43,026 nucleotides of DNA from an uncultured Bacteroidales bacterium (GTDB lineage Bacteria; Bacteroidota; Bacteroidia; Bacteroidales; Muribaculaceae). The notes beneath the pieces are model-generated. The model saw only the letters and a list, made by a program, of their open reading frames with translations. It made no database searches and was not told the origin of the DNA. Below, one piece after another: positions 655-30,886 of this stretch. Positions within the stretch are counted from its first letter, which is position 1. Each line of letters opens with the position of its first letter. The position numbers were made by a program, and so were the translations under genes. The stretch lies in contig CACYAW010000011.1 in the NCBI GenBank assembly GCA_902772455.1, positions 1 to 43,026 of the forward strand, read 5' to 3'.

Positions 655-1278
655 CTATTTGAGCTGGCGCATGTGTTCTTGGTCGAGCTGGCTGGCATAA
701 CGCTCGCGGATGATGCGTCCCACGGCATCCCCACGATTGATATACTCAAGGGTGAGGTGCTGCAGTGAGTCGTTGAGCAGGCTGTCCTGACGCACCATGC
801 GTTGCTCGTCATCGCGCTTGAGCGATGAGTCGGCCGCCATCTTGAGGTACTCGTGCCAGGTGGCCATGCGTGCGTCCATGATGCCGTTACGGCGGTTGAT
901 GTAGTGCAGGTATGCACTGTTGAGAGGGCTGCCTGTGATGTCCCAAGAGCCGTTCTTGATGTTGACGTTGGTGGTGCCGCTTTCCAACACCAGGTAAAAG
1001 GGGGTGACCGAATCGTTGTCCCAGCGTATCAGGGCCGCTTTGGGCTTGTCGGTCTGTCCAGTGAAAATGAAGGTGCCTCCGTCATTATGTGCGGTTCCGC
1101 ACAGCCTCAACTGGTGATACTCCTCTTCCAGCACCAGCAAGGTGGCGCTGTCGTGATGCTGATGATTGTCAAGGGTGACGTTCAGCACATAGTCAAAGCC
1201 CTTGTCGCGGCTGTCGCAACTGCCTAGCGTGAGGGCCATCGCGATACCAATGATGATTGATAGATGTTTCTTGTTCAT
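655..1278 (-). CDS. Putative lipoprotein with DUF4369-like domain
   Basis: A 207-residue protein with a signal peptide and the lipobox LGSC near residue 21, so probably a membrane-anchored lipoprotein. The part after the anchor (repeated beta segments, GTFIFTGQTDKPKAALI, FYLVLESGTTNVNI, GSPLNSAYLHYI) resembles DUF4369, the N-terminal domain found in front of thioredoxin-like proteins in Bacteroidota. Here no thioredoxin domain follows; the protein ends in a helical stretch. An upstream in-frame Met at 1314 would add 12 residues before the signal peptide, so I chose the Met at 1278. It is transcribed alone, divergent from the peptidase gene. Function unknown. Confidence 0.75.
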   Translation of the reverse strand: MNKKHLSIIIGIAMALTLGSCDSRDKGFDYVLNVTLDNHQHHDSATLLVLEEEYHQLRLCGTAHNDGGTFIFTGQTDKPKAALIRWDNDSVTPFYLVLESGTTNVNIKNGSWDITGSPLNSAYLHYINRRNGIMDARMATWHEYLKMAADSSLKRDDEQRMVRQDSLLNDSLQHLTLEYINRGDAVGRIIRERYASQLDQEHMRQLK

Positions 1279-1378
1279 GTCGGCAAAATTACTAAATGTT
1301 TCCCGTTCAGCCATTCTTGCCAGGCGGTGATATCATGAGATTTTAGGTCAGCGTCTAGGTTTTCTCGGTAGAAAAGCA

Positions 1379-1386
1379 TATCTTTG
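1379..1386 (+). promoter_or_regulatory. Bacteroidota -7 box upstream of the S9 peptidase
   Basis: TATCTTTG matches TAnnTTTG and lies 34 nt before the start codon at 1421. A clear TTTG -33 box is not seen. Confidence 0.6.
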
Positions 1387-1420
1387 CGACAAAATAAAAA
1401 ACCATAACATTACCTGAACA

Positions 1421-3598
1421 ATGAAAATGACAAGACGACATGGCATGACGCTGTTGCTCATGGCACTCATGGTGTTGCCCATTGCAGCGCAGAAGCAGTT
1501 TACGCTGGAGGACTTGAACTTTGGCGGTAACAACTACAGGAACATGATTCCCCAGAACCGGGTTCTCAAGTGGTGGGGAGACCAGCTGGTGCGCCTCACG
1601 GCCGACACTTGCTGGACAGTGAATCCTGTCAATGGCAAGGAAAAGGTGCTGTTCACCCGAGGAAGATTTAATGAACGCACGGGATTATCAGGTTCCAAGT
1701 CAATCATGTCCCTGAGGCAGGTCACCTTCCCCTATGCGGCTCAACCGCTGCTGCTGGCCTCGAATAATGACGAGCTCATGCTCGTGAACTTCAAGACAGG
1801 CAAGGTGGAGTGGCGTCAACCCCTTTGCGGTAGTGCGCAGGCCAGTGAATGGAACGACAAGAGCCGTGCCATGGCATTTGTCAACGAGGATAACCTGTTC
1901 GTCACCGATGCCTCTGGCAATACCCGGCAGGTAACCAGTGACGGTTCTCGTGAATTGGTTTATGGACAAAGTGTGCACCGCAACGAGTTCGGTATCGAGG
2001 GAGGCTTGTTCTGGAACCCGCAGGGAACCCGTTTGGCGTTCTACCGCATGGACCAGAGTATGGTCACCGATTATCCGCTCATTGACGTGCCCGAACTGGA
2101 CGACAGCACTCGGGTGATTGCTGAGCCCGCTCCTGAGAAGTATCCGATGGCGGGCCAGACATCCCATCTGGTGTGGGTGGGCGTGCTGGATGTGGCAACC
2201 GGCGATACAGTGTATCTCAAGGCTGGTGACCCCACCGACCGCTATTTCTCAAATATCTCATGGAATCCTGATGGAGATATCGTCTATATGATGGAAGGCA
2301 ACCGTGACCAAAATGAGGTTGAACTGGTTGCATACGATGCACGCACTGGTAACCGCATCAATTCGCTTTACCGCGAAACACACCCAAAATATGTCGAGCC
2401 TCAGCATCCCATAACATTCCTCCCCTGGGATAAGGAGAAATTCATCCTGTGGAGCGAACGGGATGGCTATAACCATCTTTATCTCTATGACACCACAGGC
2501 AGGGAAATCACCCAAATTACCAGTGGCAACTGGGTGGTCATGGATGTGCTCGGCTTTGATACCGCATGTCAGTCGGTCATCATCAGTGCCAATGCCGACA
2601 ACCCCATTCAGCAAAACCTCTACCGCGTCAATGTCACTACTGGCGAAATGGCACGCATTGACGAGGGCGGCAAGGGCTGGCACAACGGCCAATTGAGCGC
2701 CAGCGGCCGATACCTCATCGACAATTATCAGGAGCCTGACGTGCCCCGCAACATCGCCATTGTCGATACCCGCAATAATAAGCAGAAACGCTACTTTACC
2801 GCTCCCGATCCTTGGCAGGGTTACACCGTGCCCGAGTACCGCTGCGGGACCATCAAGGCAGCCGATGGCGTGACCGACCTCTACTACCGTTTGGTATTAC
2901 CCACCGACTTTGACGAGACAAAGAAGTATCCCACCGTGGTCTATGTTTATGGCGGCCCGCACGCCCACAACGTGGACGCTGGCTGGCACTGGCGCAGCCG
3001 CAGTTGGGAGACCTATATGGCACAGCGCGGCTATGTGCTGTTCATCCTTGACAACCGCGGCAGCGAGAACCGTGGACGTGACTTTGAGCAGGCTACTTTC
3101 CGCCATTTGGGACAGGTCGAGATGCAGGATCAGATGAAGGGCGTGGAATTCTTGCGCACTCTCAATTACGTCGATATGGACCGCCTGGGTGTACACGGCT
3201 GGAGCTTTGGCGGTTTTATGACCATCAGCCTGATAACCAATTATCCCGATGTCTTTAAGGTAGGCGTTGCCGGTGGTCCCGTCATTGACTGGAAATGGTA
3301 TGAGGTCATGTATGGCGAGCGCTACATGGATACCCCCCAGACCAACCCCGAGGGCTATGCCCAGTCCAGCCTCCTGAACAAGGCAGCCGACCTCAAAGGA
3401 CGTCTGCAGATCATTATCGGCTTGAATGACCCCACTGTGGTGCCCCAACACGCCTATAGCTTCCTCAAAGCGTGCATCGCAGCCGGCACCCAGCCCGATT
3501 TCTATGTATATCCCGGCCAGGGCCACAACATGGCAGGCCACCAGAGTGTCCACCTGCACGAGCGCATCACCCGCTACTTCGACGACTACCTCAAGTAA
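1421..3598 (+). CDS. S9 family peptidase, dipeptidyl-peptidase IV type
   Basis: A 725-residue exported serine peptidase, the usual length for bacterial DPP IV. Residues 1-23 form a signal peptide. Residues about 40-480 make the beta-propeller, with the family motif around VHRNEFGIEGG (185-195) and FYRMDQSMV, which normally supplies the glutamates that hold the substrate N-terminus. Residues about 490-725 are the alpha/beta-hydrolase domain with VYGGPHAHNV, the nucleophile elbow GWSFGG (Ser595), Asp670 in GLNDPTVV and His702 in GQGHNM, a complete triad. The family releases X-Pro or X-Ala dipeptides from peptides in the periplasm. The gene is monocistronic: its own -7 box lies upstream and a perfect hairpin downstream. 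Confidence 0.93.
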   Translation: MKMTRRHGMTLLLMALMVLPIAAQKQFTLEDLNFGGNNYRNMIPQNRVLKWWGDQLVRLTADTCWTVNPVNGKEKVLFTRGRFNERTGLSGSKSIMSLRQVTFPYAAQPLLLASNNDELMLVNFKTGKVEWRQPLCGSAQASEWNDKSRAMAFVNEDNLFVTDASGNTRQVTSDGSRELVYGQSVHRNEFGIEGGLFWNPQGTRLAFYRMDQSMVTDYPLIDVPELDDSTRVIAEPAPEKYPMAGQTSHLVWVGVLDVATGDTVYLKAGDPTDRYFSNISWNPDGDIVYMMEGNRDQNEVELVAYDARTGNRINSLYRETHPKYVEPQHPITFLPWDKEKFILWSERDGYNHLYLYDTTGREITQITSGNWVVMDVLGFDTACQSVIISANADNPIQQNLYRVNVTTGEMARIDEGGKGWHNGQLSASGRYLIDNYQEPDVPRNIAIVDTRNNKQKRYFTAPDPWQGYTVPEYRCGTIKAADGVTDLYYRLVLPTDFDETKKYPTVVYVYGGPHAHNVDAGWHWRSRSWETYMAQRGYVLFILDNRGSENRGRDFEQATFRHLGQVEMQDQMKGVEFLRTLNYVDMDRLGVHGWSFGGFMTISLITNYPDVFKVGVAGGPVIDWKWYEVMYGERYMDTPQTNPEGYAQSSLLNKAADLKGRLQIIIGLNDPTVVPQHAYSFLKACIAAGTQPDFYVYPGQGHNMAGHQSVHLHERITRYFDDYLK

Positions 3599-29812: not shown

Positions 29813-30802
29813 ATGAGAAATAAACGTGATGAACAGTGTAGGCAATGGTGGCAGCAACATCACGACGGGCATGAGGTGAAACGGTCGATGAAGCGCCGCA
29901 ATGCTTGGCATGATTATTATAGTCGCTGTATCTATATGATTACACTTGCCGTGGATGGCCGCAGGCCTGTCCTGGGTGAGTTGTGCGGCCCTGACGCAAC
30001 ACACCCGGCGCCATGGGTTTGTCCAACTGTGTTGGGGCAGCGTGTATTGGACTGCTGGAACGCTATCTCAGCCCATTACCCCGACGTGAGGACCATGGAT
30101 GTCCAGTTGATGCCAGATCACTTGCATGGCGTGCTCTTTGTCACCAAGCAGGTGCCTTATCACTTGGGCACGGTAGTCAACGGTTTTAAAGCAGGGTGCA
30201 ATGCTGCGTCTAGAGAGGTGTTGGGACGCGTCTTGTGGGAGGAAGGATACCATGACCGCATCCTGATGAAGAAAGGGCAACTGGAAACAATGCTGAACTA
30301 TGTGCACGATAATCCGCGCCGCCTGTGGACGAAGCGCTGCAATCCTGACTACTTCACCGTTCAGCGGGAGTACGCCATTGGTGACACTCAAGTCGCCGTG
30401 GCAGGAAACCGTTTCCTGCTTGAATATCCATTCAAGGTAGTTGTGCAGTGCTCTCGTTCTATCAATACCGATGAGGCCATCGCAAGAGAGGTGAACCGTT
30501 ACATGAATATAGCACGTGATGGAGCCGTGCTGGTGTCGGCCAGCATCAGCCCTTGCGAGAAGGCTGTGATGAGAGCCGCCTTTGAGGTTGGAGTTAAGGA
30601 AATTGTCCTGCTTGAGAATGGTTTTTCCCCTATGTGGAAGCCTGGTGGACAACAATTTGACGCCTGCGCCAAAGGGCAACTGCTATTTATCGCGCCATGG
30701 CCTTACCATAGCGAACGCAAGACAATCACCAGGGCACAATGCATGCAACTCAATGACTTGGCAAAGCAGATTGCCTCTATAGAGCCACAACGTAGCTTGT
30801 AG
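29813..30802 (+). CDS. REP-associated tyrosine transposase (Y1/HUH) with DprA-like C-terminal domain
   Basis: A 329-residue protein. Residues about 30-185 are a Y1 transposase domain: YMITLAVDGRRPVLG, the HUH motif MPDHLHGVLFV (His103, His105) and the nucleophile Tyr163 in LNYVHDNPRRL. No second IS200-type gene or IS ends are seen, as for domesticated RAYTs. Residues about 195-325 form a separate domain (YPFKVVVQCSRS, DGAVLVSASISPCEKAVMRAAFEVG, IVLLENGFSPMWKPGGQQFDACAKGQLLFIAPWP) resembling the Rossmann fold of DprA/SMF. The fusion partner is assigned by pattern only. Two REP-like hairpins follow the stop at once. Confidence 0.8.
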   Translation: MRNKRDEQCRQWWQQHHDGHEVKRSMKRRNAWHDYYSRCIYMITLAVDGRRPVLGELCGPDATHPAPWVCPTVLGQRVLDCWNAISAHYPDVRTMDVQLMPDHLHGVLFVTKQVPYHLGTVVNGFKAGCNAASREVLGRVLWEEGYHDRILMKKGQLETMLNYVHDNPRRLWTKRCNPDYFTVQREYAIGDTQVAVAGNRFLLEYPFKVVVQCSRSINTDEAIAREVNRYMNIARDGAVLVSASISPCEKAVMRAAFEVGVKEIVLLENGFSPMWKPGGQQFDACAKGQLLFIAPWPYHSERKTITRAQCMQLNDLAKQIASIEPQRSL

Positions 30803-30886
30803 CTTGCAAGCCGGTGGCTTGCACTACAGTGACATGCCTCGCTTTGCTTGCTGCCACGTTGCTGTAGTGCAGGGTAATGCCCTGCA
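30799..30886. repeat. Pair of inverted REP-like hairpins (BIME-like) after the RAYT gene
   Basis: Unit 1 (30799-30829): GTAG-CTT-GCAAGCC-GGT-GGCTTGC-A-CTAC-AG. Unit 2 on the opposite strand (30886-30862): TGCAGGG-CATTA-CCCTGCA-CTACAG. Both hairpins end in the same flank TGCACTACAG, in inverted order, 32 bp apart, so the outer CACTACAG and CTGTAGTG can also pair. It begins inside the last codons of the RAYT gene. Confidence 0.75.

Follow-up and report, generated by a model that had tools for sequence, protein, structure and literature searches.

A RAYT-like HUH protein with a C-terminal DprA-like domain and an adjoining pair of REP hairpins in a Muribaculaceae genome

The stretch of DNA considered here (the window) comprises the 43,026 nucleotides of contig CACYAW010000011.1 from an uncultured Bacteroidales bacterium of the Muribaculaceae (assembly GCA_902772455.1, the genome G000 of our set: 3.15 Mb on 163 contigs, 87% complete). 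On its forward strand, an open frame at positions 29813 to 30802 encodes a protein of 329 amino acids that, according to NCBIfam, AlphaFold and Foldseek, joins two parts: a HUH core with a single tyrosine (HUH-Y1) that resembles the tyrosine transposases associated with repetitive extragenic palindromic (REP) sequences (RAYT or TnpA_REP), and a C-terminal domain that resembles DprA. Two inverted hairpins lie immediately downstream of the gene. Our work supports the presence of all three components at this locus, i. e. the RAYT-like HUH core, the DprA-like Rossmann domain and the REP pair.

The HUH-Y1 core covers approximately residues 25 to 185 (29885 to 30367, + strand) and is defined by conservation and by Foldseek matches to the structures 2xqc and 4er8. 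The HUH motif corresponds to H103-L-H105, and the tyrosine is Y163 within the motif YVHDNP. The preliminary description of the locus had already placed an HUH motif and a nucleophilic tyrosine in the first 185 residues; H103, H105 and Y163, as well as N167 and P168, are each invariant in all 63 sequences of our alignment A3. The AlphaFold2 model of the full protein, based on 63 sequences, has a predicted local distance difference test (pLDDT) score of 91.5 and a predicted template modelling score (pTM) of 0.82. When this model was compared to the PDB, Y1 transposases were found on top (ISDra2, 2xqc, E 2.2e-6), followed by the REP transposase 4er8 (E 2.2e-5), ShosA (E 3.2e-5) and the DprA structures 3maj, 4ljk and 3uqz at about 1e-3.

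The C-terminal part, approximately residues 186 to 325 (30368 to 30787, + strand), is predicted to form a DprA-like Rossmann domain, as indicated by a profile search, the domain model and Foldseek. A resemblance of this region to the DprA/SMF fold had been suggested before; a structural match was looked for and found: With the C-terminal 144 residues modelled alone (pLDDT 93.1), the Foldseek ranks 1 to 12 were all DprA or ShosA, each with a probability of 1.00, E values from 2.8e-4 to 8.9e-3 and template modelling (TM) scores by query of 0.60 to 0.67, and the probability falls to 0.38 at rank 13. ShosA is the top match of the DprA type for both the full model and the lone domain. In the profile search against the PDB the first four matches are DprA proteins, among them 3uqz (E 0.0046) and the Helicobacter pylori DprA (HpDprA; E about 0.07), and PF02481 is the only Pfam family that was matched by more than one member (5/63, best E 0.027). 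The domain of the window protein itself matches no Pfam family, PF02481 included, and for this reason we do not class it as DprA. Weak profile matches were also obtained with PsyrA (3/24 members, best E 0.004), which we take to be a DprA-related antitoxin. The genome carries a separate DprA gene encoding 372 amino acids. In the profile alignment with Streptococcus pneumoniae DprA (SpDprA), which spans residues 98 to 173 of that protein only, R215 of the window protein aligns with R115; the corresponding pocket arginine in HpDprA is R52. This position is an arginine in 58 of the 63 aligned sequences, and an R115A exchange is described to lower the binding of single-stranded DNA (ssDNA) by SpDprA (PMC4066776). 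K276, a lysine in 62/63, matches K175 of SpDprA only if the alignment is extended by two residues, and C285, E249 and P277 are invariant in alignment A3. Judged from its length, the domain appears to be a short DprA-like form and not a full DprA, too short to comprise the entire Rossmann domain together with the dimer and RecA-contact segment.

The two hairpins, which the preliminary description had recognised as inverted and as sharing a flank right after the gene, indeed fold as a REP doublet. The first (positions 30805 to 30823, + strand; TGCAAGCCGGTGGCTTGCA) has a stem of 8 base pairs and a loop of 3 nucleotides with the foot CTACAGTGAC on its 3' side, which reads GTAG on the other strand; the second (30868 to 30886, - strand; TGCAGGGTAATGCCCTGCA) is inverted relative to the first and carries the foot CTACAGCAAC on the - strand. 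Both sequences lie 3' of the stop codon. The flank TGCACTACAG is found at position 30820 and its reverse complement at 30862, the CTACAG feet at the two ends of the spacer (30824 to 30867) pair with each other in the folds of the top and the bottom strand, and GTAG precedes each hairpin on the other strand. As ssDNA, the bottom strand forms a better fold than each of 200 shuffled sequences (z -4.48); for the top strand, this is the case with 196 of 200. Rfam contains no match to the locus. As an exact string, the flank does not recur as had been anticipated: the 10-mer CTGTAGTGCA has two copies in the 87%-complete genome, and both belong to the window pair. Taken alone this count would have refuted the reading as a REP, in line with the condition set in the preliminary description for a flank occurring only once; however, covariance models built from the hairpins show that the hairpin class does recur, with 13 matches to model R1 in this genome, and the exact 10-mer is therefore too strict. 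Hairpin 1 matches R1 with an E value of 2.6e-8, the identical unit of locus L039 being in the training set of the model, and hairpin 2, which is not a training unit, with an E value of 6.9e-4.

At E < 0.01, the three covariance models find 13 (R1), 8 (R2) and 12 (R3) matches in the own genome, including those that flank genes of the family: five of the R1 matches (two in the window, three on contig C10), two of the R2 and three of the R3 matches are gene-adjacent. The CACTAC foot of the window is present in three of the R1 matches (the pair and a copy at C55:9060) and the sister foot AATAC in nine; the remaining match, on C43, is partial. When the R1 and R3 matches at E up to 0.1 were considered (30 matches, with L180, L185, L187 and L193 left out as clipped at contig ends), 20 of the 26 readable ones were intergenic by a criterion of 100-codon open reading frames. 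In the genus (41 genomes), single genomes hold up to at least 22 R1 and at least 12 R2 matches; both figures are lower bounds, obtained with strict filters and with 150 of 747 to 3,410 candidates scored per genome. Genes of one particular lineage of the family, type B (see below; at least 73% identity to the type-B protein), are present in 11 of these 41 genomes, and at least two of them are broken (G000 and G178). Since the training set of R2 consisted of repeats adjacent to type-B genes, we restricted a recount by eye to repeats on other contigs or distant from such genes. These distant R2 repeats are present in 9 of the 11 genomes with a type-B gene as compared to 8 of the 30 genomes without (Fisher p 0.002).

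The association of hairpins and genes extends to the relatives of the window gene. Among 78 loci (77 relatives and the window), 21 have an inverted flanking pair with 8 or more of the 10 foot bases in common, as compared to 0 of 267 control windows; 20 of these 21 are sound, since the row for the window rests on a wrong hairpin pair. A second scoring gave 17/78 loci versus 0/236 controls at threshold 17 and 37/78 versus 7/236 at the loosest printed threshold, and an initial, too strict pair scan gave 9/77 loci versus 1/176 controls. Four foot types can be distinguished: A (CACTAC, the type of the window), B (CCACGNGACA), C (approximately ACAGNGRACC) and D (GCAATAC). Type A with its GTAG foot and type B with GTGG agree with GT[AG]G; in strict form this consensus does not hold across the family because the feet of types C and D are different. 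The hairpin types follow the protein tree: six changes of type are required as compared to a mean of 22.4 for shuffled labels, and none of 200 shuffles was as low. This tree contains 66 proteins, 41 labelled and 25 without a label; three paralogs from the own genome were labelled by hand, and the labels of L079, L101 and L114 rest on a single unit. Some other loci have the pair upstream of the gene. Near-identical hairpin pairs in the same orientation lie on either side of the paralog on contig C21 of the own genome (L006), and pairs on either side were also seen for the type-B genes of G156 and G170. Several copies of the type D hairpin lie close to the gene in L085, L086, L088 and L093; in L088, there are five of them upstream.

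Hairpins are also found within genes of the family. Of 12 paralog loci in which the match is split, 11 have a hairpin with 7 or more base pairs between the HUH and tyrosine codons, with the frame kept open (L195 to L203, L205 and L206, all in related genomes); these loci were chosen for their split match, and the count has no control set. In the twelfth locus, L204, the sole hairpin seen has 7 bp and is located in the conserved core. For 5 of the 11 in-gene hairpins, a copy that differs at no more than two positions lies 481 to 507 bases upstream, and one more has a second copy within the gene. In the corresponding stretch on C126 of the own genome, no frame was found. A similar in-gene feature has been reported for subclass 2.4 of the TnpA_Y1 proteins (PMC6006769).

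The own genome holds relatives with 49 to 56% identity to the window protein. They are full-length on contigs C136, C21 and C10; the relative on C126 is damaged and matches only residues 19 to 137 and 286 to 321 with a hairpin-like sequence in between (L008/L207). In the C136 copy (L005), a TAA at codon 148 out of 311 matched codons truly interrupts the gene, so that the copies in the window, on C21 and on C10 appear to be the intact ones. A gene with 99% identity (L039) is found on a contig labelled uncultured Prevotellaceae bacterium RUG497. Within the same family, 49 of 149 genomes, from 17 of 30 genera, match the window protein at E up to 1e-5. The match extends across both halves in 40 of the 149 (counted by eye; in two pieces in G139), and it is partial in nine, mostly on the HUH half, so that the fusion may be missing from some of these proteins. 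Within the genus, a match with an E value of up to 1e-20 was obtained for 32 of 41 genomes. A class-wide search with a full-protein profile, with at most five candidates scored per genome, found matches at E up to 1e-25 in 11 of 395 genomes: the own genome of the window matches along the whole profile, and the other 10 (of 394) match positions 4 to 160 only, in frames of 167 to 221 amino acids. Thus, within the limits of these searches, the fused form is seen only in the family of the window. The wider set of relative records and the searched genomes overlap and are not independent.

Both halves of the protein appear to be kept for function. For 36 close pairs of relatives (80 to 98.5% identity, the window gene being in none of them), the median ratio of non-synonymous to synonymous substitutions (dN/dS) is low in both the HUH half (0.091) and the DprA-like half (0.086). 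This purifying selection, like the absence of recent copies, fits the idea of a domesticated system, as put forward in the preliminary description. We also considered that genes with in-frame stops might be interrupted; however, 14 of the 16 loci examined end naturally there, the exceptions being L050, which is frameshifted, and L061 with an insert that bears a stop and interrupts the gene within the DprA-like domain (L061:4001-5098). A viral or plasmid origin was unsupported: plasmid records contain no match, phage records a single weak one (44% coverage), viral contigs gave none with either query, the pattern scan included, and among viral structures there was none at E up to 0.001. Two further Y1_Tnp matches in the own genome (L001 on C33 and L002 on C158, in frames of 176 and 280 amino acids) were both missed with the window protein as the query. 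A tRNA-like sequence, as read by eye, lies close downstream of the gene in L040, L042 and L044.

The family shares many features with the REPtrons of TnpA_REP/RAYT proteins as described for Escherichia coli, Stenotrophomonas and Marinomonas (PMC8266576): an HUH motif with a single tyrosine in a Y---NP context, inverted flanking hairpins with 5' GT[AG]G feet (types A and B), a REP type of its own for each protein lineage, paralogs of low identity, and dispersed copies of the repeat. In contrast to these REPtrons, the family possesses a large C-terminal DprA-like domain, types C and D have feet that do not follow GT[AG]G, the copies per genome are few, and the family was found in only one Bacteroidales family among the genomes searched. 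In their subdivision of the TnpA_Y1 proteins, Quentin et al. 2018 set REP-flanked subclasses apart from those with a large C-terminal domain (PMC6006769). Subclasses 2.1 and 2.3 also combine an HUH-Y1 core with a large conserved C-terminal extension, which is HTH/Bac_DnaA_C-like (HTH, helix-turn-helix) in 2.1 and specific to the subclass in 2.3 with its median length of 325; in that classification they are given without adjoining REPs, whereas the family described here has both the extension and the REPs (PMC6006769). Subclass 2.4 is, like our family, found in Bacteroidetes, but has the motifs NH[IFV]H, WQ and YIxNNP (PMC6006769) where we mostly find DH[LVI]H, WE and YxxDNP together with the DprA-like domain. 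The word DprA does not occur in the main text of that paper (PMC6006769), and among the papers listed for our searches of the open-licence PMC literature there was no report of a fusion of a RAYT, TnpA_REP or IS200 protein with DprA, which is not a proof of absence. With DprA and the DprA-like ShosA, the domain shares the Rossmann fold, as detected by Foldseek, and the conserved pocket arginine; it differs from them in being shorter and fused to a nuclease, in the lack of a Pfam DprA match, and apparently in the lack of the C-terminal segment that contacts RecA.

How might the two halves of the protein act together? According to PMC8266576, GTAG together with the palindrome is recognised by TnpA_REP, and GTAG can guide cleavage. 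We suggest that the HUH core of the window protein recognises a REP hairpin with a 5' GTAG-type foot in single-stranded DNA, e. g. on the lagging strand, that Y163 cuts next to the hairpin and the strands are rejoined, and that cutting and rejoining would move or copy the REP type that belongs to the protein. Meanwhile, the DprA-like domain with its retained pocket arginine might keep hold of the single strand, either flanking or released. The family would thus represent a lineage of REP-associated HUH endonucleases/ligases whose core has become fused to a shortened DprA-like domain, and which cuts and rejoins REP strands while the domain holds the strand; we assign this reading a probability of about 0.6. 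The predicted architecture and the link to the repeats are well supported; cutting, joining, the holding of ssDNA and the spread of REPs by the window protein are what we infer from them, and our confidence in the cut-hold-rejoin mechanism is moderate. It is tempting to go one step further and to speculate that REP systems of a new class exist: their enzyme would bring its own DprA-type strand-capture domain, and the spread of the repeat would be coupled to strand protection or hand-over in a single polypeptide. One genome would contain several such enzyme/repeat pairs that each have a hairpin foot of their own, and some of the repeats would insert into the enzyme genes while preserving the frame. 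We regard this wider proposal as tentative, with the odds somewhat against it.

Other explanations have to be weighed against this idea. The C-terminal domain might be a regulatory or ligand-sensing module that switches the HUH core on and off rather than a holder of ssDNA. The ShosA and PsyrA antitoxins, or other proteins of the SLOG fold, may have such regulatory or ligand-sensing roles, and the position of ShosA as the top DprA-type fold match, the weak profile matches to PsyrA and the invariant residues C285, E249 and P277, which the holding of ssDNA does not explain, would all agree with a module of this kind. Yet R215 and K276 have been kept where DprA binds ssDNA, and we consider a regulatory domain of this kind unlikely. 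More improbable is a function of the domain as a RecA loader, by which REP DNA would be cut, the strand passed to RecA, and the REPs spread by recombination. The fold match is to DprA, a protein that loads RecA onto ssDNA (PMC4066776), and the preliminary description had named this activity of DprA. However, the modelled domain has 144 amino acids as compared to 213 to 353 residues in the DprA chains, and the alignment reaches only residues 98 to 173 of SpDprA, the RecA contacts of which are located at E235 to E281 (PMC4066776). Judged by its length only, the domain appears to end before this segment, and because it is so short we rank RecA loading down.

Two further possibilities concern the locus as a whole. 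The gene and its hairpins could form a mobile element similar to an insertion sequence (IS) instead of a resident RAYT, and it is true that some paralogs have hairpin pairs on either side and that there are several paralogs per genome. The three full-length paralogs in the own genome are, however, only 49 to 56% identical with no recent copies among them, both halves are under purifying selection, and plasmids, phages and viral contigs offer no more than the single partial phage match; an IS-like element is therefore very improbable in our view. Finally, the downstream hairpins could be a mere bidirectional terminator unrelated to the protein. They do lie directly 3' of the stop codon, and REPs can end transcription (PMC6006769); but at other loci the pair is upstream of the gene, the foot type tracks the protein tree, and elements of the same kind are dispersed, so that we give hardly any credence to a simple terminator.

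Returning to the REP-associated HUH protein with a strand-holding domain, there are several observations that weigh against it or against parts of it. The NCBIfam model REP_Tyr_transpos (NF047646) matches the window protein with an E value of 1.5e-8 and 34.6 bits, and a match with an E value of up to 1 was obtained for 25 of 25 family members; since the score is below the curated cut-off of 80 bits, we do not place the protein in this equivalog. Pfam Y1_Tnp similarly reaches 15 bits at a cut-off of 23. For the C-terminal domain, PdxJ comes next in the PDB profile search at 0.081, close to the H. pylori DprA at 0.07, and the best Pfam match of a single member is Fascin (E 6e-4, 1/63), so that the link to DprA is not settled by sequence alone. 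A comparison of the C-terminal profile with the DprA of the host by hhalign gave a probability of 1%, which is weak evidence as it involves a single sequence. R215 is not universal. As for the repeats, 57 of the 78 loci lack a pair with 8 or more of 10 foot bases in common, and the covarying changes on both sides of a stem pair, seen in three alignments with 19 such cells each, are partly built in because the hairpin units were picked for pairing. Copies are few, each foot type having 3 to 12 matches in the own genome, and the usual REP abundance of more than 100 copies per genome (PMC2817692) was not reached in any of the 41 genus genomes, for which our counts are lower bounds. Moreover, the eight of 30 genomes without a type-B gene that still hold R2 elements have up to 12 of them (G180); in these cases, the gene may have been lost, the metagenome-assembled genome may be incomplete, or the repeats may be served by another protein.

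How REPs spread and why bacteria retain RAYT genes are open questions. The family described here brings together REP flanks and a large C-terminal domain, the two traits that the published classification (PMC6006769) assigns to different members. Since the extra domain resembles an ssDNA-binding protein, it suggests a step that follows the cutting of the strand. In a system that consists of a single gene, this step would become accessible by the removal of one domain. Moreover, the presence of several enzyme/hairpin pairs in one genome may make it possible to follow the joint changes of an enzyme and its repeat.
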